Assembly (NCBI GenBank): GCA_025766275.1
Contig: JAFKAC010000046.1
Coordinates: forward strand, 248,001 to 312,000
Reading direction: 5' to 3'
Length of the DNA: 64,000 nucleotides
From: Lactarius indigo
Taxonomy: Eukaryota > Basidiomycota > Agaricomycetes > Russulales > Russulaceae
The notes under the pieces: generated by a model
The model's database searches: none
What the model was told of the DNA's origin: nothing
Seen by the model: only the letters and a program-made list of their open reading frames with translations
Shown: piece after piece, positions 2,647-64,000 of the stretch
Position numbering within the stretch: position 1 is the stretch's first letter
Layout of the letters: every line of letters begins with the position of its first letter
Program-made: the position numbers and the translations under genes

Positions 2647-2663
2647 GTCTGGGGACTCACGCT

Positions 2664-5762: not shown

Positions 5763-5765
5763 GAT

Positions 5766-10781: not shown

Positions 10782-10786
10782 CTGGG
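10782..10786. repeat. Target-site duplication CTGGG, left of element D
   Basis: CTGGG at 10782-10786 matches CTGGG at 18444-18448 immediately outside the other LTR. Five bases is the usual Ty3/gypsy duplication length. Confidence 0.9.
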
Positions 10787-11232
10787 TGTAACGCCGTCAC
10801 AGCGTTAGCTCGACTTGAGCTCGAATAAAGGCGACTCTGGTAACTTAGCTAAGCACGTCCTAAGACGTATGGCACGAAGGCTTGTTCTAGATATTCGAAG
10901 ATACTAGTTATGACGTAGGATCCTGCTACTCCGGAAGTAGAGGCGAAGAGATTCGAAAGCAAGAAGTGACGATTGAAGAAGACCAAGATGGAGTGTCTTG
11001 GTCTTCCGCAGCTATCTTAAATACAGAGACAGCAGGCTTTCAAGCGCTGCTATGAGTCATCGTATCGTAGCGTCCAACGTGTCGCGTAAGTAGCGCAATC
11101 CTAATACTACTACTACCTGTACTAGGATCGAGTCATTCCTAAACACCTAACTCCAGCGTAAACCCCGAGTCTGTGACTAATCTACCTTACCGCCGTAGTC
11201 ACAACTGGTACAGTAAGGGTCCAACCGTAACA
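10787..11232 (-). repeat. 3' LTR of element D (446 bp)
   Basis: Plus-strand ends are tgtaacgccg and ccaaccgtaaca. It is identical to the other LTR except for two C/T differences, both at CpG dinucleotides that are TpG in this copy (gagtcTgtg and caacTgg here; gagtcCgtg and caacCgg in the 5' LTR). Confidence 0.95.
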
Positions 11233-11245
11233 TCACCCCCTTTCT
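11233..11245 (-). other. Polypurine tract of element D
   Basis: On the sense strand agaaagggggtga lies directly before the TGTTACGG start of the 3' LTR. It matches the tract of element A. Confidence 0.8.
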
Positions 11246-11262
11246 AGCATGAGGCACCAGAC

Positions 11263-12078: not shown

Positions 12079-12395
12079 TCAATTGGCTGGGAAAACTCCC
12101 CTAATACCGATAAGAGCGTCGTCTGGGGGGATGATCGCGATGGGTTCCCGCGCCCCGCTGTCATCTCGGAAGATGTGAGTGACGGCATGCTGCTGCTCGT
12201 CGCTGGGCTGGCGCGCGGGGTCTGGGAACCTCTGTAGGAGGTTAGCCCATTCTTGAGCGGTGATATGCCCCGTTCGCATGTTTGCAGGTGTGTACGGAGT
12301 GAGCTGGACCGCTGGAACCACGGTTTCTTCGTCGTCTTGGATGATGGCGGCGGCGTCTTGCGCGACTTGGTCGAGGAGGATCGCTGTGGTGACAT
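11673..12395 (-). other. Overlapping 240-codon open frame in the pol extension of element D
   Basis: Counterpart of the 1511-2236 frame in element A: same start position relative to pol, same length within one codon, same Arg/Ser/Thr-rich composition and central charged helix. It remains open although the pol frame beside it has a TGA. Coding status is unproven. Confidence 0.3.
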
Positions 12396-41851: not shown

Positions 41852-44225
41852 CTAAGCACGATCGTCCCGATCGTTATCGAGCGTGCGCAAGAAGTCGTAG
41901 TCGTGTCGAAAGATGAAATGTGCTGGCCATTCGTACGGGGTACCGCGACGTTGTGCGCGGAGTCGGGCGGTGATTTGGGTGGCACGTTCGCGGTCGACCG
42001 CGCGTCTGAGCATAGCGAGCCACGCACAATACGTACGGGAGTGGGCGTGAGTCGTAGGGATGTGGCACACTCGACGAGTCGCGCATGTGGCGTGAGGTGT
42101 GCGACACTCGAACGAAAGGTGCTCCTCGCTGTCGCAATGGCTGCATGCAGGGAGTCCTCGTCTGTCGTGATGTGACGCTCGTTGATCTTCTTCGGCTATC
42201 TGACTGGTGGCTGACGCTTCTCCGTGGAGTGCGGGGAACTGAGTGTGTCATGAAACCTGGGCGGTTTGAGCGTAGGTGCGTAAAGGTTGGCGAGGCGGGA
42301 CAGGCAACGCGATAGCCGACCCGATGATCGGAACGCGGTGGTGGTCGAGGCGTCGGTCGGTGTTGTTCATGTGAATAGTAGCAAATGGCAATAGCGTGGG
42401 CACGGGGTTGGACAAGTACGGTTGCAAGCGGGAAGCTGCACGGGCGTTGGCCAGTCGCTGGTCGATCTCCTCGGCCTCGGTACTCCATTCGCTCCAGGCG
42501 CGCTCGGTTTCCTTCATACATGCAACGAGTTGGTCACGTCTAGTGAGGGACGCTCGAAGACGGTAAATGTCCGCGCTAACACCTGGATCAGCAAGCAGAT
42601 AGAGGGCTTGATCTACCTCAGTCCACGCCGGATGGTCGATGCAGAATATATCCCTGGTGTCCGGAGAGTCTGACGGGATATCAGGCGTCGTGCGAGGTTT
42701 AGCGAACAAAGGACCATAATAGACTGGCTGATTTCGTCCCTCGGTGGCGATGACGACTGGTCGATCTCGCTGGTCGATAAGGAACTGGACAAATGGAGCG
42801 CGTCCTCGCGTTCCATTAGCGAGGGGTATCTCCATGAGGTAATCGTTAGTAGGGAGAGTCATCGTCCAGTGACGGTCTGGTCGCTCGATATTGGCGAGAA
42901 GGGTTTGAGGGTGATCTCTGCCCTGTGGATTTCCGGGGAGCAGTGGCAAAGGGTGCTGGTGAGGTGTCGTTGGAGTCGGGTTAGTGATGCGAAGCGCAAG
43001 AGAGGGTACGATTGGCAACGGCGAGGCGAGGCGGGGTACTTCGCCAACTGACAACTGTGGCGACTGCGGGCCTTCCCAAGGCGCGTCTTCTTCCTCTTGA
43101 GCGATTTGTTCTAACGCCTCTCTCAGTAGTCGCTGCCGTCGATTAGTACGTGCCTGTGAGTGTCAACAATGCATTCCTTGTGGGGTAATGTAGGTACTGA
43201 GGCCCCACATGTCCTCGCGGGAACGCGGAGAGTTCTGTCGTGCATCGTATGTGGGCCCGACATTGGCCCATCGTTCGACGTCTTGGTTGACCTGTGCGTG
43301 CAACCATTGTGGAGTGTTGCGGTCTGAGATCCATGGATACTGCGGTGGATGACAAGGGGGATCGTTGTCCATGAGTGCAATGGAGTTGATCGTCGTGTCG
43401 TGCGAAGTTTTATACTCGCGGATAAGATCTGGGGTTCGCAAGTTAGACTCTGGTTCCCAACTATCGTGCGCCGCAGTATATCCTTTTCCATCGTACTAGA
43501 TATTGCGGCGTCCTTCGACGACCGAAGGTGCGATAATCGAGAAGTTGCTCTACCTCCCATTCTTGTTCCCCGTCTATAAGATCCGGTGGAGGGTTGCTTT
43601 CTTTGGCACCGTTGATCTCGCTAGTTTTATATGGTGTGAGCAATCCCGCGTGGAAGGTGTTGTGAATGTGCCACGTCGACGGTAGTTGTAGGGCATAGGC
43701 GATGTCCGAGATGCGCTGTGTAATGAGAAAGGGTCCATATCAACGAGGCGCCAATTTTGTTGTTGGGTGGGTCGTTTTTAGATTTGTAGCGTCTAGCCAG
43801 ACCTTATCGCCGATGCGATAGGGCTGATACGCTGTATCTCTTACCCATTTCAATTGGGTTGTCCTCATGGCATCTTTTGCCTGTTGTCGAACTTCCTGGA
43901 GTTCTGTGAGTCTGTCGGTCGCTCTAGGCGATGGAGTGGCGTTCGATGTGGGTTGATGGACGTGAGGCGTGAATCCTACTAGCAACTCAAATGGTGTTTT
44001 CCGAGTCGTTTCGGATGTCCACGAATTAAGAGTGTACTGCGCTATTGGTAACCATTTTGCCCAGTTGTTCTGCTGATAATTCGAAAAGACTCGCAGATAC
44101 TGTTCTAGGCGTTGGTTGGTACGCTCCGACTGACCATCCGTGCGTGGGTGATAGGCAGTACTGATGTCTTGATCTACTTTCAGTGCGGCGCACAAAGCCC
44201 TGGTGAATGCGGCAGTGAAACGTGG
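41852..44225 (-). pseudogene. Pol 3' part of element E: integrase end, chromodomain, C-terminal domain with zinc knuckle (degenerate)
   Basis: Starts at the KDZ junction with FTAAFTRALCAALK, includes the third integrase residue in YHPRTDGQSERTNQ, and then the chromodomain (EVEQLLDYRTFGRRRTPQYLVRWKG). Lesions: a TGA at 43740-43742 where the family has Arg (LAPR-stop-YGPF); one extra base in an A-run at about 43483-43488, which splits the chromodomain; and TGAs at 43163-43165 and 42248-42250, each in an otherwise open frame. The C-terminal extension resembles that of elements A and D (YYGPLFAKP compare LYGKPLYAHP). It continues past the last TGA into a CCHC knuckle, C-SH-C-DSEE-H-LSFE-C, near 42115-42155, followed by further Cys/His residues, to a stop at 41852. 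Confidence 0.8.
44219..44225. repeat. Target-site duplication AACGTGG, left of the KDZ element
   Basis: Perfect 7-bp match to 61007-61013. One more base (a/g) differs, so an 8-bp duplication with a mismatch is also possible. Confidence 0.88.
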
Positions 44226-44368
44226 CAGCCAATGATCCAGCATGACTTCCATAACTGATGGGCCAACCGACAGTGAGAGTCTTTCATATGTCATGGGCCA
44301 GCTGACGTCGGCCAACGGCAAAGAATCTCCCAAGACTCATGGGTCAACCGACGTCAGCTCGGACGGAC
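44226..44368 (+). repeat. Left terminal inverted repeat of the KDZ element
   Basis: Shared blocks with the inverted right end: tgacttcca, atgggccaaccgac, gtgagagtctt, atatgtcatgggc, gacgtcggcc, catggg, cggacggac. Roughly 80% identity with at most one indel. A cca-accgac/gtcggcca word repeats several times inside. Confidence 0.88.
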
Positions 44369-44474
44369 AAAATGTATAAATACCTCCGAGTGAGATGACT
44401 GAACGCAAACCAAGGGTGTATTGTCAGGAGAATCACATTAGACACTTTCAAAGATATGGGATATATGGCATCAA

Positions 44475-45660
44475 GGACCATCATTCTCGGACAGATGATC
44501 GTGATTATTGTCCAAGAGTATATCTCGGACGGACAGCTAAGAAGTACGTCTGAGAACATATCTCGGACGGATGGCTAATATCATTGTCCGAGAACATATC
44601 TCGGACGGACGGCTAAGATCTACGACCGAGAACGTATCTTGGACAGATGCTTAAGATCTACATCCGAGATAGTATCTTGGACGGACGGCTAAGATCTACG
44701 TCCGAGACAGTATCTCGGACGGATGGCTAATATCTATGTCCGATATACTATCTCAGACGGATGCTTAAGATCTACGTCCGAGATACGTTCTCGGACGGAT
44801 GCTTAAGATCTACGTCCGAGATAGTATCTCGGACGGACGGTTAAGATCTACGTCCGAGATACTATCTCGGACGGATGCTTAAGATCTACGTCCGAGATAG
44901 TATCTCGGACGGACAGTTAAGATCTACGTCCGAGATACTATCTCGGACGGACGGTTAAGATCTATGTCCGAGATACTATCTCGGACAGATGGCTAAGATC
45001 TACGTCCGAGATACTATCTTGGACGGATGCTTAAGATCTACGTCCGAGATACTATCTCGGACGGACGGTTAAGATCTACGTCCGAGATACTATCTTGGAC
45101 GGATGCTTAAGATCTACGTCCGAGAACGTATCTCGGACGGACGGTTAAGATCTACGTCCGAGATAGTATCTCGGACAGATGGCTAAGATCTACGTCCGAG
45201 ATACTATCTCGGACGGATGCTTAAGATCTACATCCGAGATACTATCTCGGACGGACGGTTAAGATCTACGTCCGAGAACGTATCTCGGACGGATGGCTAA
45301 GATCTACGTCCGAGAATGTATCTCGGACGGATGCTTAAGATCTACGTCCGAGAACATATCTCGGATGGTTGGTGAAGAACCACGTCCAACAATATATCTC
45401 AGACAGATGATTGAGAACTTCGTCCGAGGTATACTCTTGGACAGATAATCAAGGATATTGTCCAAGATATATTCTTGGACAGATGATCAAGAGCATTGTC
45501 TGAGATGTATTCTTGGACAGATGATCATGAACATTGTTCAAGAATATATCTCAGACAGATGCTTAGGCACATTGTCCGAGAATGTATCTCGGACAGATGA
45601 TCAAGAACATTGTCCGAGAATATATCTCGGACACATTATTGTGTATACAGATCAATGATA
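44475..45660. repeat. Left subterminal array of 38-bp palindromic units (about 30 copies)
   Basis: The unit is about TCCGAGA-tacta-TCTCGGA followed by cggacggttaagatctacg. Each unit is an inverted repeat able to form a hairpin. Outer copies (44475-44580 and after 45370) are more diverged. Similar units of the same length lie at the other end (60318-60735). Probably transposase binding sites. Confidence 0.85.
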
Positions 45661-45979
45661 GGTCTTGATCATGCCCACCGACAATATATCTCAGGCAGAT
45701 AACTGCGAACACCCTTCATGATGTGATCTCAAACAGATTACTGTGTCTTCTTTGACAGTATATGTCAGACAGGTGATAATTAGCACCTTCAAAAAGTATA
45801 TCTTCGAGAGCTCATATCAGTAGCCACCAATTACCAGGAAGCCCCTTGTAAGAATACATCTTATACTGATAACCCAAATTACTTCTGGACACCATCTCTT
45901 GGAAATGTTGCACAAATGATATATTCTTCGATGCTGTTCAATGTCATCTGCCCAAGATATGGGCCCACAGTAATCTGAT
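45661..45979. other. Decayed edge of the left array; downstream of the transposase gene
   Basis: Diverged repeat remnants (atatctcaggcagat, tatgtcagacaggtg) fading into unique sequence before the transposase stop. No gene seen. Confidence 0.5.
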
Positions 45980-48900
45980 TTATTGATCCTCCAATCTATT
46001 ATGAGCAGATGTTATCGGAGTGAGTGCCTTGACTGAACTCCTACACATCTCCTCCCATCTGTGCACCTGGTATGATGCATATGCACTGTGCCCATCCAAC
46101 CTCCCCTTTGTTGCCACATCCATCCATGTCTTCCAACACTCTGCCTTTGCATGGAAGTAAGCTGGAACCCACAATGCTTCATTTCTGATGCTCTTATCTT
46201 CCTCCTTCCATCGTTCAAGCTGTGACTTTGCTCGCAGCCAATGCACACGGTTAACTATTCATTCAATCAGCATGGGTCATGGGCATGCATAAAAGTAGTC
46301 ACTCACATTCATCAAACCATGCACCACCTCTCTTTTCAGAAGTACCAAAGCTCCAGAGCCATGGAAGCTGTGTGTTCCGCTGCCCCACTACTCCAGCACC
46401 AAGGATGGCTGTATGAACACGGAGATCTGTTGCCTGGAGTAATGGTAGTTCTTGTAAATCTTTGGATATTTGCTGCACCTTGATGTATGCATCTCTTGCC
46501 ATGCTATATGTCCGAGCATGCTCATGGACTGTGTTATCAACGCTCTGGACTGCAGTCCAGGCACGAGTCTTCGTTTTCTGTGTTCGCGCACCTCGGACCT
46601 GGGTCTGGAACAGTGCCGATTTGAAGCCCAATGCCAGGCGAATCCTGTGGATCGAATCATTTGCCTGGGCATAGCGCAACTTAGCCTCCTTAAGTGCAAG
46701 AGATTTGACACCATGAGTGATACACCATTCTGCTCCAAGTGTTGATGGGAGTAAAATCGGAATGTCCTCTGCATTGGTACCCTCCGATCCAGAGATGTCC
46801 GATATCTGAGTCTTGGATCTTGGAACTGTGGAATCCTCCATATCATCCACATGGTCATACTCTCCATAGTCACCCAGTGATGGGATGGGTGCATCCAGTG
46901 GTTGATGGTGGAGCAGAAAGGCATCTGCCTGGTGTGAAAACATGTCAATCAGCTTCTGCAGGTGGATCCGCTTGTTCTCAATTGTCTGAAACTCTTCAAT
47001 TGTGTGTGAGCCATGGGTCCGGAGCTGATATCTGATGGCCAATCTAAGCAAGCCATCAGGTGTACAATTCCGGTGATGTTAACACTGATGGCCAACTGAC
47101 TGCATTTCCTGAATCTTCAGGCCACATGAAATCCATAATGTCCCACCACGAATGGAATGGTTCCCATCCTCATCTGCCATCAGTTGCTGTTGAATCATGG
47201 CACGAGAAGGTGCTTAAATCCAGCATTAGTTCGGAGGAGGCTATCCATGATTGGTGTCCAAACCTTTCTGCTTCACTGTGTCATATATGTCCATGCTAGA
47301 AGGGTCCACACCTCTCCGTGTCTGTGCGGCCATGTCCTCCTCTAGCCATTGCTTGGTCTTGTCCTTAAAATGTTCACTAAGAGATTCAAATGCCTTGCTG
47401 CTTGCATCTAGGCCATGCTCCGAGCGCTTCCACCGCTTGAGAAGTGATGGAACTGTCATATTCAAGTGATGTTAACTCTGTATGCCATTATGTATAATCC
47501 GGCCATACCGATCCGGACCAGCTTCTTCCAGTTGGAGTGGTTCATGTGGGCATCTAGGACCTCTTGCCTATGAGCCAGGGACATCCCTCGTGTGCTCCGT
47601 GATATGTTATTCAGTGGGGCCCATAAGGTCTCTATGATCTCTCCATCAACCTGCTTTGCACCAGGAATGTAGCTCGGAGAGAATCGTGGTAAGCAAGAAT
47701 CTTGGTGGCCATGTATGTGGAACAGTCCGATACCCATCCAGATGTCCAAGGCCTCGGAGCTGGGTAGTGACAATCCTGGACTGTTCCTTACTTGCTCCTG
47801 GAAGTGCACTCTGTATTGGCACATGATGTCATACATCACCAGTGCAACTGGCATGTCTTCCATGTTGTAAGAAAGAGCTTTGCAGATGCTGTAGTCCATA
47901 TTTATTTGCCTGGAGATCATTGTAAATCAGTTGCAGACTGAGACTTTTAGTGAATGGGGCATGCCTCTCTCCCTTCTGGAAGTCTACCACAGAAGTCGGA
48001 ACAAAGAATCCATGGCAGCAAGCTGTTGCACCAATCCCTGTGACATCAAGATGTGCCCTACTTGAATTTGCCTGTTCAATGGCTTTGTATGTGTTACATG
48101 TGCTTGGCTATTGGGCCATCAGCCAAACCAAACCTGGTAGGGAGGCACAACATACCTGGACAATTTCATGGCCACTTTTAAGATGAGCCTTGTACAGTTC
48201 TGGATTCGCCATGAAGGCCATTCCAGCAGACAGTGCAACATCCTTCTCTCCAGACCTGTGCCTCATGTGCTCTGCAGAGAAATTTCCATCCATAATGAAT
48301 GTTCGGATCAATTCATTCCTATAGGGGGTCAATGACATGAAAACAGTGTCCGAAGATTCCACATACGGTTCATATCTGGCCTTCCAATCTCTTGGGAGGT
48401 TGACTCCTGGCTGTGGACATGCTGGGCAGAAAACTGCCATGGAGCCATCTGGAGACATTTCCTCCGACTGGTGTCTGAGTCCCTGCTCCATTCTGGACCT
48501 GAGGTCTCACCATTGGCGTGATGTCCTCAATAGTTGTCTATACAAATTCTGCAACAATTCATTATTGACTGTGGGTGATGTGGAAGAAGAGGAACGGACC
48601 GGAACAAGTCCTGGGAACATTCTACTGGTCTGGCTTTGCAACTTGGAATAGTACTGTTGGGCTGTGGTCTTGCACTCCAAGTTGTCATTCAGAAAGTCAT
48701 CAAGAACTGAGAATGTGAACAGAGTCCTGACTTGCTTGAAGGTAGCAGGAAATAGACCACTCTGGAGCAGCTGTTCATCTTGGTTATCCGATTCAGAGCA
48801 GACACAGAACACTGTCTCCATTTCAAAGATACCACTCCTGTCCACAATTGTTAGAATCTGATTTCCTGAGAGCTCTCTGGGTGCCTGATCCATGGACATG

Positions 48901-49850
48901 TGCTTGTCACTTGAATCCAGAAAGATGTCCGAATTGTCAAATAGTGCATCTGAAATGATTGGAGTAGTTGATACACCACAAGGCTTCAGGGTATCCTGGG
49001 GTGTGGCTGAGTGGTCTGAAAGTTGGAGAGATTCTAGTTCCTCTTGAACGGAGTGCAGCGAAGATGACAACCCAGGTCTGGTGTGTTTATTTCTCTTGCC
49101 ATGGGGTCCCTGTGCTGCTCTGATTCCCTAGATGAGCATGAGCACAGGTACACATGAGACAATGCAATGGTATTATACTTCAACAGTCAATGGACATGGT
49201 GCACCAGCATGCCCAAGGAACAGCACAAATCCCAGTGAGTGCAGTGAAACCGGAGTATAGTGTGTTGCAGTCCATAGAAGTGGCCGATGAAATGGTGAAT
49301 GCCTGTGAGACTTGACACAGCAGGATTGACAAAACAGTGGTGCTCCGACACAGTCAGGGCACTTGACCTCTCCATGGCCATGGCATATAGAGCATGTGGA
49401 GGAAGAAGGCCGACTCTCCATGGCCAAAAGTATATGGAGATATCTGCTCCGGAGTTGAAGCCATTGCTCCATGACAGTCTACATCAAATTAGCATCCTTC
49501 ACCCCATGTAGTGGATATCTGGTACATACAGGTGCCTGTGGTTGAGACTGCTTGGTCTCATCATTTGGAAGCTCATCCATTTGCTCATCTATCCATTGCT
49601 CGGCTTGTGTATCTTTGAAGGAGGCTGAGGCCATTTGAGATCCCTCTGCTGTGGCTGGATCTAATGCTTTGTCCTTCTTTCCCTTCTTTGAGTTGGAAGA
49701 CTCTCCAGCCTTTGCCTTGGTTGGGAGGAGAATGGGGACAGACTTCTGCGTGGTCCAAATGCCCCTCTTGGTCCGTCTGTGATGAATGATAACTTCTTTA
49801 ATACCGTCCTCAGCTGGTAGAAGAGATTCAGCTGCACGTCTCCGAGGCAT
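45980..49850 (-). pseudogene. KDZ transposase, nine exons, one in-frame TGA
   Basis: Model join(45980..46254, 46307..47043, 47101..47212, 47264..47452, 47509..47909, 47965..48071, 48156..49127, 49179..49478, 49530..49850): 3414 bases, a multiple of three, 1137 aa. A basic/Lys-rich N-terminus comes first. The CxC2 cysteine cluster follows (CSICHGHGEVKCPDC...CCVKSH, exon 2, then FCVCSESDNQ in exon 3). Next is the KDZ catalytic domain: CPACPQPGVNLP, D in FIMDGNFSAEH, GERQINMDYS, D in MYDIMCQY, HVHGHQ-type FHIHGHQDSC, E in DGEIIETLW. A coiled region and RVHWLRAKSQLERW end the protein. A TGA at 48507-48509 replaces the expected Arg (RQW-stop-DLRSRM) within exon 3. The intron 47910-47964 has a GC donor. 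It would be the DNA-cutting enzyme of the element; with the TGA it is inactive unless read through. Confidence 0.88.
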
Positions 49851-50033
49851 CTCTGGTGATCAGAAAGTATAAACAGGAGGGGTGTATCTGTGGTGGATGA
49901 TGCTATTTCGGTATGTATCAATGTTCCTTTTATATCTGCTGCTCCATGCACATCTCATATATGTCCATTATCGATCTCAGAGATACCTGATAGTTTGTGG
50001 CAGGTGTCTCGGACACTGAATCTATATGGGTAT

Positions 50034-50190
50034 GTCAGTCCGAGATTGCCAGTACGAGATTGTCAGTCCGAGAGTGTCAGTCCAAGATTGTCAGTCCGAG
50101 ATTGTCAGTCTGAGATTGTCAGTCTGAGACTGTCAGACTGAGACTATCAGTCCATGATTCTCAGTCTGTGATTCTCAGTCCAAGATTGTC
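50034..50190. repeat. 14-bp tandem repeat, cagtccgagattgt (about 11 copies)
   Basis: Successive copies of cagtccgagattgt with C/T variants (cagtctgagactgt and others). It lies just upstream of the transposase start, and the core word is again TCCGAG. Possibly regulatory, or a spread binding site. Confidence 0.75.
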
Positions 50191-50447
50191 CACTGATTCC
50201 ATTTCATGGAGTTTGACAATCTAATATTTCATATTCATCTCTCAGAGTTGTGTTACCCCACATACATCTCAGAAGCAGTAACAGAATGTATGGTATGCCA
50301 ACATTCATGATATAGACCATGTAGATCTAGTTCATTGATTGGGTACTCAGTCCGAACACAGGTACATGCAATAGCTACCTGCAGACCTATATACTACAAT
50401 AGTACCACCCACCCATGACAGCACCTCTGGTGCAAGCTTTGGATGGA

Positions 50448-50877
50448 TCATCCACTCATCTCAACATACTCCGAAGGCAGCGCAATCCCCTGTGCATCAC
50501 AAAGTGCCTTAGCCATGATGCACATATTCTGGAGGTCAATGTGGAGCCTGTCGATCTCCACAATGATCTGATTATACTATGCCCCACATAAGGATACCGT
50601 AAAATATGCTCCAGAGTGATGCACATACCAGGTTTCCCAAGGCAACTAGTGACTCTAAGTCCGAGTTGGAACCATCCAAACCAGAGACATCCGAATTTGA
50701 GCTGCTTGCATCAGAACTAGTGCTGATGCCTTCATCATTGTAGTGGGCCGGATACATATCTTCTTCATCAAATGATTCAAAACCTGATGAGATGCAGGTC
50801 TCTGGCTCGGAGAGATTGGAAGGTGTATCATGGTCATGTGTAAACAAGGATCCATGTGTTTCTGTCATTGGCAACAT
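50448..50877 (-). CDS. Small acidic protein, two exons, 122 aa (KDZ cargo)
   Basis: Exons 50629-50877 (83 codons, MLPMTETHGSLFTHD) and 50448-50567 (39 codons plus stop, IIVEIDRLHIDLQNM), with GT-AG intron gtatgtgc...ataatcag and phase 0. The first exon is Ser/Asp/Glu-rich (SSSNSDVSGLDGSNSD). The second exon looks like a leucine-rich amphipathic helix. It is co-directional with the transposase, about 0.6 kb upstream of it. I do not recognise a family. A helper or regulatory role would be a guess. Confidence 0.5.
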
Positions 50878-51199
50878 CTTCCTGATGGATTCGGAGTGAG
50901 GTTCGGAATTGACTATGGTTGTGTATACAGTGGTTGTATAGTACAGTGTTTCGTGAGCATTTATAAGCTATCTGAGTATCCAATATCTCATGGATAATGG
51001 CATAATCTGTAACACAGTACCCCACCCCACTCCGATCACCTATTGTCAAGTATAGCACTTCACTGGGTTTGAATTGAAACATGTGTGATGTATGTGGAGT
51101 GAGTGAATACTCTGCAAGATCTCTTGGGTTGCATTGGATATGTAGAGATGTCACCACAGCATAGGCAACACACACAAGGATTACTAGTCTGCTAGTCAT

Positions 51200-51899
51200 A
51201 CGATCATAATGAATGCACTATGTGCCTAGCAATTCGTACTTGATTGCTTAGCATTAGTATCAGCATCCTTGCCTAGACACCCAATTTGGACGGATATTAG
51301 TCACTGACACACACCAAAGTCCGATGTCTGCGCAAATGAATGTCTGAGATTCACGGAAATAAATGTCCGAGATTCACGGAAATGAATGTCCGATGTCAAC
51401 AGGATGCATGTTTTGGCTATTAGTGGACAGTCTTTGATGCCATCAGTTCTCTTAATTGATACAGGTACACCAAGTCATGCTAACACATGTACCGAAGATA
51501 CACTATGTAATGATATACGAACATAACAGACACATGTGCTCCCCTGTCTGTTTGGCACAGAGATGGGAGCAGAGTGCTCAATATGCATCACTGTGATTCC
51601 ATGACAAGGACAGTACATATCCACTAAGTATGATGAAACTGGACTGAGAATAAGGCATCTGATGTGGACCTGAGATTACTGGAGTCGCTTAGGATGTTCT
51701 CTGAATAGCATTATATATAGTGTCCCAAGATGCGCATGAAGTTGAGACCTAAGGAGTATTATGAGGAATTAGTCAGATGATCTCCCTAAATCAATTGAAC
51801 ATATTTAATAGAATAAGTGCATCAAACATGGGGTGAAATAGGATGTATACAGTATATAGTATCAGAGACAGAGTGAGCTGGGCAGCTGTGAGTGCAAAA
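51200..51899. other. Non-coding stretch in the KDZ element
   Basis: No gene. Three copies of aatgtccga-gattcacggaa or close variants (about 51340-51400), again with TCCGAG. Otherwise AT-rich unique sequence. Confidence 0.5.
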
Positions 51900-53160
51900 T
51901 AGAGTGACTCTAACACTAAGTGCATCTGAGATGGTATGTGTCCGAGATGGTGTGTGTCCAAGGTGTTGTCCAAGATGGTGTGTGTCCAAGATGGTGTTCA
52001 TCTGAGGATGTGTGCATGCGAGATGGTGTGTGTGCGAGTCAATGTGCGTGCGAGATGGTGTGCGTCCGAGAATATGTGTGTGCGAGCATGTGTGCATGCA
52101 AGTTGGTGTGCATGCAAGTAGGTGTGCATCCGAGATGGTGTGCGTGCGAGTAGGTGTGCGTGTGAGCATATGTGCGTCTGAGTCGGTGTGCGTATGCGAA
52201 TATGTGTGTTCGAGTCGGTGTGCGTCCAAGAATATGTGCGTGCGAGTTGGTGTGCGTGCGAGTATGTGTGTGTCTGAGAATATGTGCGCTCGTGTCGGTG
52301 TGTGTCCGAGAATATGTGCGTCCGAGTTGGTGTGCGTCCGAGTTGTGCGTCCGAGCATGTGTGCATCCGAGTTGGTGTGCATCCGAGTTGGTGTGCGTCT
52401 GAGCATGTGTGCGTCCGAGTATGTGTGCGTCCGAGTCGGTGTGCGTCCGGGCAAGTGTGCGTCCGAGATGGTGTGTGTCCGAGTCGGTGTGTGTCCGAGC
52501 ATATGTGCGTCCAAGTATGTGTGCGTCCAAGTTGGTGTGTGTCCGAGTTGTGCGTCCGAACATGTGTGCATCCGAGTTGGTGTGCGTCCGAGCATGTGTG
52601 CGTCCGAGTCGGTGTGCGTCCGAGCATGTGTGCGTCCGAGTATGTGTGTGTCCGAGTATGTGTGTGTCCGAGTATGTGTGCGTCCGAGTCGGTGTGTGTC
52701 CAGGCAAGTGTGCGTCTGAGTTGGTGTGTGTCCGAGTTGGTGTGTGTCTGAGCATATGTGCGTCCGAGTATGTGTGCGTCCGAGTATGTGTGCGTCCGAG
52801 TATGTGTGCGTCCGAGTATGTGTGCGTCCGAGTATGTGTGCGTCCGAGTATGTGTGCGTCCGAGTCGGTGTGCGTCCGGGCAAGTGTGCGTCTGAGTTGG
52901 TGTGTGTCCGAGTCGGTGTGTGTCCGAGCATATGTGCGTCTGAGCATATGTGCATCCGAGCATGTGTGCGTCCGAGTATGTATGTGTCTGAGTCAGTGTG
53001 TGTCCGGGCAAGTGTGCGTCCGAGTTGGTGTATGTCCGAGCATATGTGCGTCCGAGTATGTGTGCGTCCGAGTCGGTGTGTATCCAAGGATGTGTGCGTG
53101 CGTCCGAGTTGGTGCGTCCGAGTTGGTGTGCATCCAAGACAGTGCCTATCCGACACCCAA
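51900..53160. repeat. 16-bp minisatellite gtgtgcgtccgagtat (about 75 copies)
   Basis: About 1.2 kb of a 16-bp unit with third-position-like variation (gtgtgcgtccgagtcg, gtgtgtgtccgagttg, gtgtgcgtccgagcat). 16 is not a multiple of 3, so a 48-base cycle opens frames on both strands (up to 444 codons). These are repeat artefacts. The core TCCGAG is shared with the subterminal arrays. Confidence 0.92.
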
Positions 53161-53443
53161 TTCGCCCAAGTCTGTGTGAGTCATAGAATGTGCATAAGCT
53201 CAGTCCAAACTCAAGGTCAACCTGACCACATATGGTAAGCAAGCAAGCAATCCAACTTTCATTTCTAGACATTCTCTGGTACTACATATGAACGACACAT
53301 TCTATTACTTGGTTTCAATGATAACTGTGACCATTATGGCCGACTGCGCAAGGATGCCCTTGACCCAGGAGCACTAGGGGCCCTAGAGACACTTGGGGCC
53401 CTAGAAGCCGGCTTGATGGTCGCTCCACTGCGCCCAGTAGACA

Positions 53444-55850
53444 CTAACAGGGGTCAGACATAAAGCAAGTGAGTCCGAAATAGAGTCCGAGTTCGGACGA
53501 CGCACCATTAGCTGGCACATTCCCAGCACCGCTTCCGGACGATCCTGTGGCTGGACTGGCTGAGATGGACAGCCTGGAGACGTCAACGCCAGTGGAGGAT
53601 GTCGAGGCAGCTGTGGAAGCTGTGGTACTGAGTGTGGAAGCTATAGATGGCGAGACGGCAGATGCTGAGTTGAACAGAGGGACTGGTGGGGTATGGAGAT
53701 TGAGGGTCGATGGAATGACGTCGTGGCGCATGCACAGCGCACGGAGGAGTAGTTCCAGATTGTTCTGGCCAATCTGGAGAGCTGCAAGGCGCTCTTCAAG
53801 CCTTTCTTGTCCGCGCTTGAGAGAGTCAAGTGTCAGCGTCATATCGTCGAAGACAGCTGTAAGGGAATGTTAAATGAGTTCGGACGGACTGCGGTCAATT
53901 GCGCACATGCGGCCGAACGCCTCCAGGGCAGCTGCTGTTTCCTCTCCTCCTTCGCAAGCTTTGAGTGCTCGATGGATTCGATGATCGGGAGTGCCCAAGC
54001 TGGTGGAGGCTGGCATTGCACCTTGCGACTCCGGCAGAGCGCACATGCTATGGCCTTTGGAGCGTTGACCTGGGGGACACACTCCTTCGCATTGGACATC
54101 TGGCATGGCCCACAGAATCCCTGGATGCCAGATTATCGCACCACCACTCGGAGAGAAAAACGGACGTACTGTAACAAACGCGCCTCGACCACGTGACTTA
54201 CCAGCATCACGTGTTGGACCTCTATGGGACTATCGTGAGTCCGGATGGACAAGTACCGACTCCCCTGAAGAAGATGACGAAGAAGGAGGGCTGCTTACGC
54301 AGCTGCAAAACCAAGAGGAGTATGCCCAAGCCGCGTATACGCGGTGTGGACGGCTGACAGTCACGTGACTAACATACTCACGTGACAATGTTTCAGTGTG
54401 ATGTTTGCGTAATACAAACATCACGCCGAACCAGTGTTACGGTCCACTTGCCTTATCAAGCTTAGAGGTTATTGGGTTCCTTTGTACAGACTTTACGGGC
54501 CTACGTGCCTACCTTCTGATTACTGTATGCGTTCTGATTGGCTGATACGTTTATGCTGACTGATACGATACCGAGGGCCTTATGCCATTGGCTGTACTTA
54601 TCTATGACTCAGTACGATACTAGGGTTTCTGTGTTTGGATCTGACTACGAACCTTACTACACACCAGTATATAGGTAGTACGCTGGGACGGAGCGTTCCC
54701 CAGCTTGAGTTCTTGTATCACTCCTACTGTTCAATAGGACTTCAGGCTTTCCCCTCCTTTGTGACTCATCGCTTGCCTCCCATCTCTCTTTTGGTCGACG
54801 GCTGTTCAACTTCTCTCTTATTCCCTGATTATCTCATCAGGAGGTAGCCTTGTTCTGACTACTAAGGGGACGTTTCAGCACTTCAACTCGTTCCACGAGT
54901 AGTAGTCACGTGCCAACACCCGTTCTCGGTCCAAGTCGGACAATACGTTCGTAGGAACGTAACACGTACAGGGTCCGGAAGGGATTCCTTTCCCTTTCCC
55001 TTTGCCTTAGCAGATGTGCTGGCCTTGCGTTGACGGCGCTTTGCAGGGATGTCCGAGGATGGTGATACCACAACAGCCTGGGGGCGCTTGGTCGCCCTTG
55101 GCTTGCGCGGTGTCGCCTCCACATCTGGATTGTCCAACATGATGATGTCGTCACCAGTCGAGTCTTCATCAGTATGGCCGGATACCTTCACCTTTGAGTT
55201 GCGTCCGGAGCGGCGCGGACCACTACTCGCTCCGGTACTAGCTGATTCGACTATTGTGTGTGATTAGATTAGCTATGTGTCTTCAGCATATGAGCAGCGA
55301 ACTCACCTTCTGCAACTTCATCGTCGTCATCGCCTTCACCTCCGGCAGCCTCAGCAGCTGCATCTTCAGCAGCCTCCTCATCCTCAAATGTGGGCTCTCC
55401 AGGGAGCCACCACTCGACCATGTCCGGTACATTGCTAGCAAGGCGCCGGACATCAGCCAAGGAGAGCACTGGGTTGAACCCAGGGTTCGCACTTGAGAAC
55501 GCCTTGCAGGCCTCACGGATCGCATCGATGCTGAACCTGTCCAGCTCCATGTCACCATTACCAACGCGCACACTCTCCTCTCCAACCATGCGCAGCAGTG
55601 GATGCATGCGAGGGACACAGGCATCCTCCTTCTCAAAGACCTCATTGACCTCGTCCTATGACACTCAGTGAGTGAGCCGTGATACGCATTTGGACGGACC
55701 ACGCACCAACTCATTTTCCAATGCCTGGTTGTACCAGGAATCGTCCACAGCTTCCTTATGTTCATCCCTATACCGGAGAGCAGTGTCTATCCTACAGGCG
55801 ATCCCCAACAGCTGAGCCTCAGCAGGAGTAATAGAGTCGGATGCTGCCAT
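53444..55850 (-). CDS. Cysteine-cluster (Zn2Cys6-like) and coiled-coil protein, spliced (KDZ cargo)
   Basis: First exons are well supported: 55707-55850, 55307-55655 and 54970-55250 (phases 0, 1, 0), GT-AG. They encode an N-terminal helical domain (MAASDSITPAEAQLLGIACRI, then DEVNEVFEKEDACVPRMHPLLRMVG), an acidic run and a basic, nuclear-signal-like region (PAKRRQRKASTSAKAKGKGK). After a long intron holding a solo LTR come six cysteines spaced C-x2-C-x7-C-x11-C-x2-C-x6-C (near 54000-54110, ending CALCRSRKVQC). This is close to the fungal Zn2Cys6 binuclear cluster. A coiled coil follows (TLTLDSLKRGQERLEERLAALQ) and then a Ser/Thr tail. Exon edges between 53837 and 54400 are uncertain. It is probably a DNA-binding protein carried by the element. 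Confidence 0.6.
54435..54964 (+). repeat. Solo LTR inside the KDZ element (about 530 bp)
   Basis: Ends TGTTACGG and CGTAACA, as in the other Ty3 LTRs here. TATA-like agtatatagg near 54668, followed by a hairpin (gctggg ... ccccagc) near 54690-54713. Flanking pentamers differ (accag, cgtac), so no target duplication remains. The right end lies only 5 bases inside the 5' splice site of the cysteine-cluster gene. Confidence 0.65.
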
Positions 55851-56196
55851 CGTTGTAATGTGGAAGGTGAACGTTGAACAATCAGATACTGTCTATCGCA
55901 TACTCGGACACCTGACTCCGAATATTCGACGTCCGAGTTTGATGTGATTGGACCGATAAGGCATGCCCCATACGGACGCCCCACATGGACGCCGCGTCCG
56001 ATCTGTCCGGACATCTAATAAAAGCATATGCCCCACATGGACACCGAGTCTATTGTGTCCAAACATCTCATAAGAGTATATGATGTCATAGTTCTAGTCG
56101 CCCAGTACACAACTCCGGACATGCGGCATGCATCTATGCATACACCATAGTCTTGGGCCCATACTTCGGACAGTCGCCAATTCCAATACTTAGTCC
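55851..56196. other. Divergent intergenic region between two KDZ cargo genes
   Basis: About 350 bases between a minus-strand and a plus-strand start, so probably a shared promoter. Contains repeated words gccccacatggac(a/g)cc and tccgagt/actcgga. No gene. Confidence 0.5.
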
Positions 56197-56253
56197 ATGC
56201 ACAGTAATATAGTCATCACCGATCCAGCGAACTATCAGCCACACCCACACAAC

Positions 56254-57118
56254 ATGTCATTCCCAGATGAGACTTCGGAGTCTGAGTCCAGTGTGTCCCC
56301 ATATAGTAAGCATTACCCACAGTACTTACCTGAGTCATATGGCCATAGGGCATTGGGCATACGTCGGAAAGATGCCCCCACATGCGCGAAAGCTTACTGC
56401 GAAAAGTGCGCCTAGCAAGGCCACTCCCACTGCCACACCTACCCCAACTGCTACCACCCCACCTGCTCCAGCTGTGGCTGCCACTGCAGCAGCACCATCT
56501 CTGGCTTCTGCTCTTGCTCCGGCCTTTCAAGCAAAGGTGGTGCCTCCAGTGAAATCAAAGGTCAAGCGCTCTTTCCTCTACAAAGATGCTGGTACACCTA
56601 CCCCTCCTCCTGCTGTGCAAACTGCGGTGCCTGCTGCGGCTTCCACTCCGAAGGTACGTCCGAGTTCAACTCACAGTATGGCATTATCACAATCTCTGAA
56701 TAGGATCTGACTGATGCGATGGTGGTGGACGACGATCATCCACCTCCGCATCGTTCACAACCTACTACATTCTTGCTCAAGTCAACGGCCTCCATCTCGG
56801 AGCCAGCACCGGACGGAAGTGATCCGGAGAGTGAGGAACACACAGTACGTACTATCGGACACTTATCACAGTGTTCCCTCCATTACCAACCACTCATATG
56901 ACATGCCCCAGCTGGCTTCGACCTCCAAGAACACCAAGGAACTCGCCCGCTCACCGGACACTGCTCCATCCATGGTTGAGGTAACCAAGGTCCGGGAGAT
57001 GGTGTCTCATCTTCGTGCACACCTCATAGAGCGTCAAATAGCCCTTCACGACGGTCTGGAAGCTGAGAAAGCGTTTACAGATAAGCTGGATGAGTTCATG
57101 GCCAGTCTTCCAGAGTAG
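56254..57118 (+). CDS. Ala/Pro-rich protein with C-terminal coiled coil, 234 aa (KDZ cargo)
   Basis: Exons 56254-56305, 56349-56653, 56704-56844 and 56912-57118, all GT-AG, 705 bases in phase. An in-frame ATG also exists at 56197. Low-complexity Thr/Pro/Ala middle (TPTATPTPTATTPPAPAVAA), then acidic DDDHPPPH, then a C-terminal helix (VTKVREMVSHLRAHLIERQ ... KAFTDKLDEFMASLPE) predicted as coiled coil. Family not recognised. It is divergent from the cysteine-cluster gene and upstream of the 551-aa gene on the same strand. Confidence 0.65.
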
Positions 57119-57244
57119 TCAAGTTCATAGCTGTAGTCTACCTTGTGAATCTACTGTTCCTCCTCAGGTTTTGGTCACTTCTGTTGGGGTGATTGCAGCA
57201 TACGATGTGACCATATTCAATCAGATGATATTTACATGCCATAT

Positions 57245-57755
57245 AGAGCGTCTAGAGATCATTCACCGATTGGCCACAGCACGCATATTCGGACATGACT
57301 CGGAGTCATGTGTCGGAAGGGCGTTTCAGCTGGAGTCATGAAGGCAGACTGCACCTCTCTGAAATGAAGTGTGTTTTGTTTCATAACCACAACGCAATCT
57401 ACTATGAAGAATATAGGTGTCTAGAGACCGTTCTCAGATTGACAATGGAATGTATCTTCGGACATCGTTCGGACGTGTTGGTCCGGTGTGCATTCCGTCC
57501 GAAGTCGTGAAAACAGACCGCATCTCTCCAAACTAAATTGTATTGTGTTTCAAAGCCATGACACCAGCCTGTTAAAGTAAGTATAAGATGTCTGGAGACC
57601 CTTCTCAGATTGACAATTGAATGGATCTTCGGACATACTTCGGACATATTGGTCCGGTGTGCGTTCCGTCCGAAGTCGTGAAAACAGACCGCACCTCTCC
57701 AAACTAAATTGTATTATGTTTCAGAGCCATGAAACAATACACTGTGAGTATGTCA
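57245..57755. repeat. About 170-bp tandem repeat, three copies
   Basis: The block tctagagac(c/t).. ttctcagattgacaat .. ttcggaca .. ttccgtccgaagtcgtgaa recurs at 57251, 57420 and 57591. Copies 2 and 3 are most alike. It lies between two plus-strand cargo genes and contains several TTCGGAC/GTCCGAA words. Confidence 0.85.
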
Positions 57756-58007
57756 CTGGTCTTTCTAAGTATATCACTCCAATACACTTTGTGTTGAAAC
57801 CTATCATGTTACGTGTGTCATGTCAACACATGGATTTCGGAGTCCTCATTTTCTGATCGTTCAATCCACCTACCCTGTATTAAGGTGATATCTCTGGGTC
57901 ATCCTCTTGGGGACTTATGAGAGCACTATATATATGCTCAACCATGATCAGTTTGATTTCCCAAATACATTCGATTTCCATACCCTTCAACAACTTTGTC
58001 TACACCC

Positions 58008-60058
58008 ATGTCTGAACACTCTGATTCATCTGCTACTCACTCTGGCCAAGACTCCAGACCAATGCCTCCCACTAAGGAGGGGTTTGTAATCACACCACAG
58101 GATGCAACCATTCTTAGAGGCTATATGGATGACTTTGAGCAGGCTGATACACAGATGAGAAAGAATATTCTGGAGAAGGCTATGGGGGAACTGTATCGGA
58201 GGCAGCCTGCCAACTCTGTGTTTGATAAGAAAGATGCTAGACAGGTATTGATATTCCATGCATGCTTATAAGTCTACTGATAGATATGCTTTACAGAAAA
58301 TCAGAAAGTGGTTCTACAACCACTACTCCCCTCCTCATCGTCAGGTTATCAAGTTCACTCGGAGGTGGTCTGCAAGGAATGTCTTCTACCATGAGGATAA
58401 GGCACACATCACTGTGCTTGCAGAGGAAATGTCCGGAGCTGTGCCTGGAACACAGGAATTCTTAGGTGCACTCCAGGAGGCAACCACTGAGTTATGGAAG
58501 AAGTTACCAATTGAGGAGCAGGAGCGCTTTGCGGAGACTGCTAAAGAATGGTCGGACAATGGCCCTCCGAAGGGCATTCAGGCCAAGTAAGTGAAGTCTC
58601 ACCACTCCATGCATCACACTGACTCACCTTCCAGAATGGCTTCGGCTGCTATCCGTGGCCGGATAGTGAGAGACTTTCAAACCCAACTTTACAGAACATG
58701 TGGAGCTCGGTCTATAGTTCTCCTTGCATACCAGAAGGAGGATGGAACTCCGCAGGTTTCAATGTATGTTGTTTATGTTACATTGCTGGCCGGACACTAA
58801 CTGTTCTATTCACAGGGATGAGTGGAATGCTGGTGTAGATGAAGGACTTGATTTCGGAGACTTCTGTCCTAACTGGAGGACCTCTGTGCTCTGGGATAAA
58901 TGGAAGAAATATGGCAGGCAGTGCTTTGGGCCAGGTTTGGAATGCATTCATCAACATATATGATTATCTCATAAGTGATACAGACGATGATCAGGGTGCT
59001 GAGAAGAACCATGCAAGGACACTCAAGGCCCCTGTCCAAATCACCACTGATGTGACAGGGGAACCAGAAATTCCATCCATTGTCAAGGGTGGTGGACATC
59101 AAGCCAAGGTGGTTCAAACAGCGCTTAGGGACTATTGTACTGCCCATATTAGTGAGTGGTCTCCACAATATACATTGTATTCAGTCACCTATGTGGATAT
59201 GTGCATTAGGGTTCATCTCTGGCAAGCGTAATCTGACCATCCCTTGGGCAAAGCTATCCACAGCTCCTACTGCCTGGATAGAGGAAGAGTGTTATCCACC
59301 TGGATTTCAATGGGCAGACCCATCAAAAATACGATTGGATGATGTCCATGACCTTTTGATCTACTGGAGGCAGTGGAAGGAAGATGGACTGACTCCCCTC
59401 ATCTGGAACCCATCATGTGAGCTGCTTGCTGAAGCGGAGAAGACCTCCGAACATCTACCAACTCGGAGACGGTGCCAGACTCCTTCCACCTCTAATCCAG
59501 ATGAAGAAGAAGAGGACTTTGCTAGAGACTTGAACAAGATCTCTGATCATCCTAGTCCGGAGTCATCACCGCTACAAATACTGCCTTCTCTGCATGCAGT
59601 GCAGAAGGGTCCTTCCAAATCCAATACTGAACATCCAGCCAGAGTAGGAGTAGAGTCTACTGAATGTCCAGAGCCTCCATCTGTCCCACAACACTCCTGT
59701 GGGTTTGGCCATTGCTTCCATGTGCAGACTTCCACTCATCTGCTTATATAGCATACCTCCATGGTGCACATGGCAGTAATGCTCCACCCTCTGAGACAGC
59801 ACCCACTGAATTGACACAAGACCCAGGTAAGTACTTTCACAAATGCTTTTGATAGTTAGCCATTCTATTCACACTGGAAGTAATCTAGCCAGAGGACTGT
59901 CAACCCATCAAGATACACCAGGCCAGAGGATGGCACTCCTCCAAGTTCACCATGGGAGCACTTTAGCCTCTACATCTGGACATATGTCAGAGGACCAACC
60001 ACCTCATTCTCACAGTCTGGGCAAGCGGCAGATCAAGAAGTCAGATAAAGCCAAGTAA
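58008..60058 (+). CDS. 551-aa protein with HMG-like segment (KDZ cargo)
   Basis: Model join(58008..58244, 58297..58586, 58635..58763, 58816..58934, 58984..59151, 59210..59702, 59777..59826, 59889..60058), 1656 bases, phases consistent, all GT-AG. N-terminus MSEHSDSSATHSG, then helical ILRGYMDDFEQADTQMRKN. A conserved-looking core follows (KIRKWFYNHYSPPHRQVIKF, then KWSARNVFYHEDK-type). Within it FLGALQEATTELWKKLPIEE resembles the last helices of an HMG box, weakly. The middle is Trp-rich (NWRTSVLWDKWKKYG) and the tail is acidic, Ser/Pro-rich and ends in basic KRQIKKSDKAK. I recall similar unnamed proteins as common in mushroom genomes, but I cannot name a function. No 2-oxoglutarate/iron dioxygenase (TET/JBP) motif was seen, although such genes accompany some KDZ elements. 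Confidence 0.65.
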
Positions 60059-60317
60059 GACTATCTTTCTACATCTCACACAGCATTCTGACAGTTGTGA
60101 AGGAATATGGACACTGGCAGGGGTTCACAGAGGATTGGTCCGGGCTACCTTGAGAGACAGAATTAAACTGTACACTCTATAGCTACATATATTGGCTATC
60201 TATATCTGAACTGTGGACTGGCTACATAATATCATTTCTAATTTTCTGTCAGACTGTGATTCATATCACTCTTCCAAGTTGTCCTGCTGATAGATATGGT
60301 TGGAGCACACTACTCAC
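60059..60317. other. Unique sequence between the last cargo gene and the right array
   Basis: About 260 bases, AT-rich, 3' flank of the 551-aa gene. Nothing else seen. Confidence 0.5.
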
Positions 60318-60735
60318 ACATCCGAGATTAAGTCTCGGATGGTGATCAATGGAACACGTCCGTGATTCTACCTCGGACAGTAATTAATAGAATACGTCCG
60401 AGATTCTACTTCGGACAGTGATCAATGAAACACGTCCGAGATTCTACCTCGGACAGTAATAAATGGAACACATCCGAGATTCTACTTCGGACAGTGATCA
60501 ATGGAACACGTCTGAGATTCTACTTCGGACATTGATCAATGGAACATGTCCGAGATCGTACCTCGGACAGTGATAAATGGAACACGTCCGAGATTCTACC
60601 TCGGACGGTGATCAATGGATTACGTCCGAGATCGTACCTCGGACAGTGATCAATGGAATACGTCCGAGATCGTACCTCGGACAGTGATCAATGGAATGTG
60701 TCCGAGATTCTACCTCAGACCATGTTTGATAACAT
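60318..60735. repeat. Right subterminal array of 38-bp palindromic units (about 11 copies)
   Basis: The unit is about TCCGAG-attctac-CTCGGA followed by cagtgatcaatggaacacg. It has the same period and palindromic core (TCCGAG...CTCGGA) as the left array, with a different spacer. Confidence 0.85.
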
Positions 60736-60862
60736 CTCTGTGTTTACCTCTCAGATGTCAAGCACACATTCTATTTGGTACAGTGTCCGATCATATCTCT
60801 CAGATGCGGAAGCCATAAAAAGTCACCATTGCATGATTACTATGGAGCTGTTTGTAAATCTC

Positions 60863-61006
60863 GTCCGTCCGAACCGATGTCGGCTGGCCCATGAATCTTG
60901 GAAGGAATCTTGGGCGTCGGCCGACGTCGGCTAGCCCATGACATATCTAAGACTCTCACCGTCGGTTGGCCCATGAATGATGGAAGTCACCATCAATCAT
61001 TATGTG
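60863..61006 (-). repeat. Right terminal inverted repeat of the KDZ element
   Basis: Inverted partner of 44226-44368; ends ...tatgtg at 61006. Confidence 0.88.
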
Positions 61007-61013
61007 AACGTGG
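61007..61013. repeat. Target-site duplication AACGTGG, right of the KDZ element
   Basis: Partner of 44219-44225. With one copy removed the integrase frame of element E reads through. Confidence 0.88.
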
Positions 61014-64000
61014 ATCCCTATCGGATATCACTTTGGTGGGGAGTCCATAGTGTGGCACCACATATCGAAGATATAACGCCACTGTTTGTTCTGCGTCGAT
61101 TGCTTCTTGACACGGGACGAATATACTGGCCTTTGAGCACCCTTGGTCAGTGATCGTAAGGATGGTATCATACTTCCCCGATTTAGGAAGCTTAACAATA
61201 AAGTCGAGGGCTACTATATGGAATGGCAGCGCTGTTTCTGTAGGGTAGATGGGTGAGATCGGCGGTTTTGGGCGACCTGGCAGGTTTTTATTAGCTTGGC
61301 AGGTATGACAGCCGGTGACGTAATCTGCGATATCCTTCGTCATATTCGGCCACCAATAGTGTTTTTGTATCGCCTGTATGGTTTTTGTCTGGCCGGGGTG
61401 ACCGGCGGTAATTGAATCGTGGAAGGATTCGATCACCCCCCTCCTCAGGGTGAGATTGTCCACGATCACAAGACGTCCGCGGTGAAAGGCAAGTGAAGGG
61501 GGAGACGATGAATGTTCCAGGTGATAACGGTTGACCCAATCTGTGGGAAGAGCGAGGAGTTGTGCTTGGCGACACCGGTCGTCGAGGGAAATGATGCGGG
61601 CGGTGTTGATAAAGTAAGCGGGAGGCAAAACGACGATGCCAGTGTTATTGTCGTTGGCAGGTACGAGTGCAGGGTGACGAGAGAGGGAGTCGGCGTGGAG
61701 GGTAGGTCCGGGCACATGGCGAAGGCGAAGGTCATAATCAGCGAGGATGTTGACTAGGCGCGCAACGCGACGATTGATGTGTTGTGGAGAGCGGTAGTGT
61801 AGGAGATTGGCGTGGTCCGTGAAGACGGTAACTGGATGGCGTGCGGCGACTAAGAGATGTCGCCAATGTTCGAGTCCACGAACGAGGGCGAGGAATTCGC
61901 GATCGTACACATCGTAGTTTCGTTCGGTGGACGAGAATGCTTGGGAGAAATACCCAACTGCTTGATGTTTATTCTGCGAATCCGATTGCGTGAGGATAGC
62001 GCCGATGGCGTATAAGGAGGCGTCGGTTTGGAGAGAATACGGTAGATCAGCATCCAGTTGTTTCAGCGCAGGGCGTGAGCAGGCGAAGGTGATGAGGTTG
62101 TCGAGAGCCGTAGCATGCTCCGTAGTCCATTCAAACGGGACGTCTTTACGCAGGAGCTGTGTGAGCGGCTGAGCGAGGTGCGCGTAACGTGGAATGAATG
62201 GTCGTTGATACCCTAGTACGCCGAGGACGCTGCGTACTTGCTTGACAGTGGTGAGTTGGCGTGGCCAGTCATGCAGGCCCGATATTTTGTCCTGTCCCAT
62301 GCGAATTGTCCCGTCAGCGATGGTCATGCCGAGATAGTCGATTTCAGTGCGTTCGAATTCACACTTAGAGAGTTTTAGGAAGTAACTCTCATCGAGGAGG
62401 ACCTGTAAAACCTTGTTAACGATCATGCGATGTCTTTGGATGTCGTGGGTAGTAGCAATGAGTATATCGTCCATATAGACGAATAGCTCCGCGGGATGCT
62501 GATTGAGTAGACAGCGGAAGATTCGATTCATTGCGCGTACAAAGGTAGCTGGTGAATTTGTGAGTCCGAAATACATGACCATGGGCTCGAACAACCCGCG
62601 GGGCGTTTTGAACGCGGCTTTCCATTGATCACTGTCTTTGATGCGGATATTGTTATATCCCCAGCGGATGTCGAACTTAGTAAACAGTGTCTTATCGGCC
62701 AGTCGGTCCAGAATGTTAGAGATCAGTGGGATCGGGTAGGTATCTCTGACCGTGATTTTATTCAGTGGTTTATAGTCTTGGACGGGTCGTAGTTTACCGT
62801 CTTTTTTCTTTAAAAAGAAAAACGACGACGCATAATGTGATTTCGACTCACGGATGTAGCCTTTTTCGAGATGTTCGTGCAGAAATTCGTCCAGATGCTC
62901 CAATTCTTTAGCGTTTAACGGATATATTTTGCACTGGAGTGTGGGAGGAGCGTCTGGGAGCAGAGTGATCACGTGGTTGTCTGCTCGTTCGGGCGGGAAT
63001 CGTTTGGCGGCTTCCTCCGAGAAGACGGTGGCGTACCGTTCATATTGTGGTGGCAGTTTTTCGGCTCTGCTCGAACCAAATTTTTCGGCCATTTGCTGCG
63101 CGATGGTGTTGATAGTGTCTAGTCTTTCGAAGGTGAGTTGTCTCTGTGGTCCAAGTAGCTGATTATTTGTCCAATCGACATCAGGGTTAGTATCCCTAAA
63201 CCAGGCGTGGCCTAATATAATGCGTGGGCGGCCAAGGGTCGTGACGTAGAGATGGGTGTTATACCAATGCTTTCCCCAAACGAGTCGAATCGGGCATGCC
63301 TTGGTGATCGCCCCGGTCGTGTTAAGGGTGCCATCGGCGTTATATGCTTGTCGAGCAGGTACGCTGATCGTGGTCATTCCGAGTTTTTGGACTAACACGG
63401 GGTCGACAAAGTTTTGCGAAGCTCCGGAATCCAGCAATGCTGGCACGTCGTCTCCGTACTCGACTTTGATGGGGATAGTGAGTGTCGTCCCATCTGCGGA
63501 TGAGAGGGCGTTAATCTCAGCTGCGCCGTCCCCCTCCAGGTCGTCGTCGTCATCGATCCCGACTTCGATGAGCATTTGAGAAATCATTTGCTTTCGATCG
63601 GTACCAGATAACCCCAGTAGTCCCGTAATCAGTGTCTGTTTATCTAACACGGGTGTAGGGGCGACCGTTGATTGCTGTACCAGAGGCGCAGTGACTTCGT
63701 TAATTCGGCTGGGACCCAGCCTTTTCTTTGGACAGTCGCGCGAGAGGTGCCCCGATTGTTTGCAACAGAAACAGAGGCCCTCTTTTCTGCACCGCTCCCA
63801 TTCCGCTTGCTCCTGAGGAGTTCGTTGTCGTGGCGTAAACGTACTAACGGCATCTACATCCATTGGTACGACGTCGTTCCGGGGGGTTGGTCGAGGTATC
63901 GTTGGCTTTGGTGGTGGGATTGCTCCCTTCCCGAGTGCGGCTACACAATTAGTAATGGTGCGGAATCGTTGCGTTTCTTCCCGTGTGGCGACCTTCCAGT
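61007..64000 (-). pseudogene. Gag-pol polyprotein of element E, cut in integrase by the KDZ insertion; enters from the right edge
   Basis: One open frame from the window edge, so gag and pol are fused here rather than shifted. Order from the right: end of gag with a CCHC knuckle (CFCCKQSGHLSRDC, near 63730-63775), aspartic protease (ALLDSGASQNF, near 63430), reverse transcriptase with VYMDDIL near 62470, RNase H, H2C2 zinc region (HPGQTKTIQ...CHTCQ), and integrase with the first two catalytic Asp (ALDFIVKLP, SDRDPR). The frame then enters the KDZ terminal repeat and stops at 60993. The remainder of integrase is at 41852-44225. No stop occurs in this part. Confidence 0.92.

Follow-up and report, generated by a model that had tools for sequence, protein, structure and literature searches.

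The closest described relatives of the element reported here are KDZ transposons of fungi. Kyakuja-1_LB and Kyakuja-2_LB, as characterized in the accessible part of their description, are KDZ elements with 7-bp target site duplications, 5'-CA..TG-3' ends, no terminal inverted repeats (TIRs) and a TET/JBP gene, and they belong to a group found in Agaricomycetes, including Russulales (PMC12730594). The Cryptococcus elements KDZ1-3 are complete units of about 9-11 kb with long TIRs of 139-241 bp, according to the available excerpt (PMC12810828). We analysed a stretch of 64,000 nucleotides from Lactarius indigo (contig JAFKAC010000046.1, positions 248,001 to 312,000; hereafter the window) and found that positions 44226..61006 hold one of many copies of a KDZ DNA transposon. 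Going by the published descriptions, this element resembles the Kyakuja group in its KDZ transposase, 7-bp duplications, CA..TG ends and occurrence in Agaricomycetes, and differs from Kyakuja-1_LB and Kyakuja-2_LB in having TIRs of about 144 bp and three companion genes, here called Z, X and W, with no TET/JBP detected. Because of these TIRs, it is best described as Kyakuja-like rather than as a member of the group. Completeness and long TIRs are shared with Cryptococcus KDZ1-3, which carry a CxC1 domain instead of CxC2 and duplications of 8 bp (KDZ1) or 4-8 bp (KDZ2 and KDZ3), and for which the excerpt mentions no Z, X or W. The giant KDZ elements of Ectocarpus are alike in their large size, nested insertions and extra genes; their host is a brown alga, and no Z/W set is mentioned in the portion of that account at hand (PMC12477816). 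An earlier note, made from the letters of this DNA alone, had proposed a new cargo-bearing element family. This is only partly right, because cargo-bearing KDZ elements are already in print. The family itself, with Z, X, W and motif arrays in place of TET/JBP, is apparently undescribed: the literature searched held no account of it, although earlier descriptions of KDZ companion genes may exist.

The boundaries of the element are defined to the base. Its inverted ends lie at 44226..44369 (forward strand, starting with CA) and 60863..61006 (reverse strand, finishing with TG), and match at 82% over ungapped arms of 97 nt or along about 144 nt in a gapped alignment. They are flanked by perfect AACGTGG duplications at 44219..44225 and 61007..61013, much as the earlier note had read them. 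A search of the genome (90.3 Mb, 291 contigs) returned 98 candidate left ends, 40 of which were scored, and 185 right-end matches, with 18 of the 40 scored at 97-100%. Fifteen complete copies with both ends were examined: ten long copies of 15.1-23.3 kb, that of the window among them, and five short relatives of 3.7-12.0 kb whose ends agree but whose interior differs. Further long copies, outside these 15, were paired from end matches (C258, C112, C179, C46, which spans 22 kb, and C50). All 15 copies start with CAGCCAATGATC and end with ATCATTATGTG, and mean identity between copies is 91-97% inside the boundary against 25-26% outside it, where the flanks are unrelated. The ends proposed earlier, 44226 and 61006, thus stand. 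The search also turned up differing duplications: 12 of the 15 copies have a perfect 7-bp duplication, each of a different sequence, while mismatched pairings of left and right flanks never agreed on 7 bp (0/210). On the other side, three copies (C1a, C246 and C215) have no matching duplication.

Empty sites provided a second line of evidence. Among 40 right-flank matches listed, four loci were read, and in each of them the two flanks meet directly, sharing 7 bases. These loci are uninterrupted relatives of the Ty3 element that hosts the insertion. One of them reads ISDRDPRFTAAFTRAL in frame, bearing out the earlier claim that removal of the element restores an integrase frame; a second was translated in one frame only, a frame other than that of the integrase. 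In the window, the insertion interrupts a Ty3 integrase region, which is the target and no part of the element; the right-hand portion of that region is an open frame on the reverse strand (60996..63998). The copy measures 16,781 bp. It is complete, as had been claimed for a 16.8-kb unit, but 795 bp of it (54170..54964) are a later insertion resembling a solo long terminal repeat (LTR), with TG..CA ends and a CGTAC duplication.

The transposase gene (45817..49850, reverse strand) has many exons, whose edges come from a crude splice model. It matched the Pfam profiles of KDZ (2e-28) and CxC2 (4.3e-22), both above the cut-off, and an N-terminal KDZ part matched at 3.1e-13. The CxC2 domain falls in the frame 48510-49127, and the KDZ domain at about 48299-47531. 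The transposase domain PF18758 with its cysteine cluster, and a whole unit bounded by terminal repeats and short duplications, are both features of the KDZ superfamily.

The three companion genes occupy the right half of the element. Gene Z (53447..55850, reverse strand) encodes a Zn-cluster/coiled-coil protein represented by 24 proteins, by our alignment A2 and by 17 N-terminal matches in the genome. In the window copy it is broken by the solo-LTR-like insertion; eight of the nine other long copies have a clean junction without the 795-bp insertion, and C215 is disturbed there by something else. Gene X (56213..57115, forward strand), a candidate for a small protein, comprises two open frames and resembles the N-terminal portion of L. 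hatsudake protein P0029 (46% over 79 aa, E 8.6e-13, plus a weaker second match). It is separated from W by repeats of 169-171 bp (57246..57735). Gene W (58008..60055, forward strand) encodes about 560 aa according to splice models, protein P0001 (99%) and alignment A1, with exons at 58008-58244, 58297-58586, 58635-58763, 58816-58934, 58984-59151 and 59210-~59698, followed by small exons to ~60055. A weak HMG-box-like stretch lies near its residues 101-168. No credible domain emerged when 55000-59900 was scanned with Pfam in six frames (two matches at chance level, E 0.15 and 0.21), and neither W nor Z produced a convincing profile match to a solved structure. Nine copies compared by codon position and by synonymous and non-synonymous changes were too similar to reveal a coding signal. 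In two proteins, P0133 of L. hatsudake and P0072 of L. hengduanensis, W-like stretches stand alongside PF18759 and PF00075; these may be gene-prediction fusions.

The genomic neighbourhoods of KDZ genes provided insights into the standing of these companions. We typed 125 KDZ places out of 150 rows among 175 matches, setting aside 8 short C-terminal fragments and 17 N-terminal-only rows; the types are open-frame lengths and serve as a proxy for families. Against these were set at least 95 places for W (one per locus; a W too diverged for the two queries would escape), 37 for Z and 39 for TET, with search distances from KDZ of 24 kb for W and 12 kb for Z and TET. Gene W lies within reach of KDZ at 67 of 75 loci of five types (207, 154, 152, 149 and 160), on the opposite strand in 65 of the 67 and at median distances of 8.8-10.0 kb. 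Of the 33 loci of types 154 and 152, 26 have gene Z, always on the same strand as KDZ (26/26). A 207-type locus also holds, between W and KDZ, a gene resembling Z and sharing its cysteine pattern, which a small search matched at E 3e-6 and 2e-5.

Transposons do capture genes, and Z, X and W might accordingly be host genes carried as passengers. This is highly improbable in the face of the association and strand order just described. In addition, W and Z have homologs in other Lactarius species, and every homolog with a named organism is a hypothetical protein of that genus, many belonging to clusters of several members. Since the homologs of W, and those of Z where detected, hold to one strand and a similar distance from KDZ genes across several families, we regard W and Z as companions of the element, and infer that Z, X and W are its stable helper genes.

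Meanwhile, TET/JBP genes are found beside other KDZ types. They occur at 34 of 38 loci of types 171 and 153 (e.g., C95:25566-29409) and at none of the 87 loci of other types; in all 34 the TET gene is on the same strand, at medians of 3.5 and 4.3 kb from KDZ. In none of the 125 loci did a TET gene less than 12 kb away coincide with a listed W less than 18 kb away. W was found 18.6-24.0 kb from KDZ at 4 of the 38 TET-type loci, two of which (C46 and C50) sit inside larger copies of the window-element family. The genome's 39 Tet_JBP matches all lie outside the contig of the window, although highly diverged TET-like proteins could escape; no TET/JBP was found in the Pfam-scanned frames of the element, which cover 51.8-55.0 kb in part, or within 12 kb of KDZ at the 17 loci of the window element's type. 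A tree of seven KDZ-core sequences from the L. indigo genome separated the two TET-bearing types from the five W-bearing types with 100% support, with core identities of 63-68% between the groups and 88-98% within the W group. Since TET and W thus part along one and the same branching of the transposase tree, their separation probably reflects one evolutionary event rather than repeated replacement.

Tandem arrays in the element, of several unit lengths, have a short CpG-containing motif in common. With the insertion left out, the element has 131 GTCCGA sites in 15,987 bases, compared with 28 in the remaining 47,205 bases of the window. The motif is the core common to arrays of 38-, 14-, 23- and 16-bp units and to 81-bp units of a short relative. 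Arrays of 38-bp units lie just inside both ends, at 44485..45633 on the left (41 sites) and 60316..60720 on the right (16 sites). Three more are internal: a 14-bp array (TGTCAGTCCGAGAT; 50033..50190) with 3 exact sites, a 23-bp array with 2 sites (51334..51393) and a 16-bp array (GTGTGCGTCCGAGTAT; 51938..53135) with 37 sites. Genome-wide, GTCCGAG occurs as a tight triplet (three close copies) 197 times, whereas its reversed control never does; all 100 triplets listed fall in copies of the window-element family, with C79 assigned to it from its right end and gene Z.

The short relatives retain the ends and array stretches of the window element, have no match to it longer than 300 bp, and contain no detected transposase. 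These five (C244, C168, C101 and two C1 copies) combine the family's ends and GTCCGA arrays with other insides; by eye, frames in the 12-kb relative look Ty3-like and those in the 10.9-kb relative helicase-like. Dense arrays just inside both ends, kept even by relatives in which no transposase was detected, are what would be seen if the arrays were only subterminal repeats for transposase binding, with Z, X and W acting in the transposition complex or in transcription and having nothing to do with methylation. We give this explanation an even chance; the arrays in mid-element (50033-53135), between the transposase and Z, speak against it, since end-binding needs none there.

The copies also record their own decay. 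Of the 243 changes seen in only one of nine long copies, C>T or G>A accounts for 202, of which 164 fall at CpG. Such decay is as expected if the copies are CpG-methylated, and among copies this young it suggests CpG methylation of transposons in L. indigo. The ratio of observed to expected CpG is 0.36 and 0.57 in two gene-rich regions, which are thus depleted, and 0.99-1.40 in three array regions. The idea that motif CpGs are shielded from C>T change was not supported: 140 of 2224 motif CpGs (6.3%) were mutated, versus 512 of 7328 other CpGs of the element (7.0%; p = 0.27).

VANDALs are Mutator-type elements of plants. The L. indigo element is reminiscent of VANDAL21 and its VANC gene, as far as the excerpted accounts go, in pairing a companion gene with noncoding tandem arrays that repeat a single short motif (PMC5735166, PMC10398659). 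VANC of Arabidopsis VANDAL is an anti-silencing factor; the likeness of Z and W to it is one of layout, read from sequence. By analogy, Z and/or W might be a sequence-specific anti-silencing factor that binds the GTCCGA arrays, undoes CpG methylation and replaces the TET/JBP of sister KDZ elements. We consider this unlikely, since motif CpGs mutate as often as the others, no comparable noncoding array is seen in 4 kb lying between W and KDZ in another family that carries W, and the TET/W split may be a single event. The fuller proposal, that of a fungal transposon lineage whose fast-evolving DNA-binding Z and W would act through family-specific CpG-motif arrays instead of TET/JBP, as a counterpart of VANDAL and VANC, is quite unlikely. 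A TET-independent anti-silencing role of the companion genes, judged from sequence, is possible, although the one local test of it, for CpG protection, gave a negative result.

Collectively, the locus is probably an autonomous-type KDZ cut-and-paste DNA transposon with Z, X and W as companions, in which the transposase acts on TIRs and arrays and Z and W are DNA-binding helpers of the element. The mechanism that we infer as a whole would run as follows. By binding the TIRs together with the subterminal GTCCGA arrays, the KDZ transposase would move the unit by cut-and-paste; short relatives with the same ends and arrays would be mobilized in trans; and Z and W would serve the element in regulation, assembly or escape from silencing, rather than being host cargo. 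Elsewhere in the window, positions 1-16074 contain several open frames of Ty3-type retrotransposons, two of them with chromodomains.

These findings have implications for the understanding of KDZ transposons in fungi. A recently multiplied family with base-exact ends offers helper genes that can be tested, and the L. indigo genome holds a natural comparison, with TET/JBP in one KDZ clade and Z/W in the other. If it is true that the Z/W set also counters silencing, fungal transposons would have more than one way to do so.
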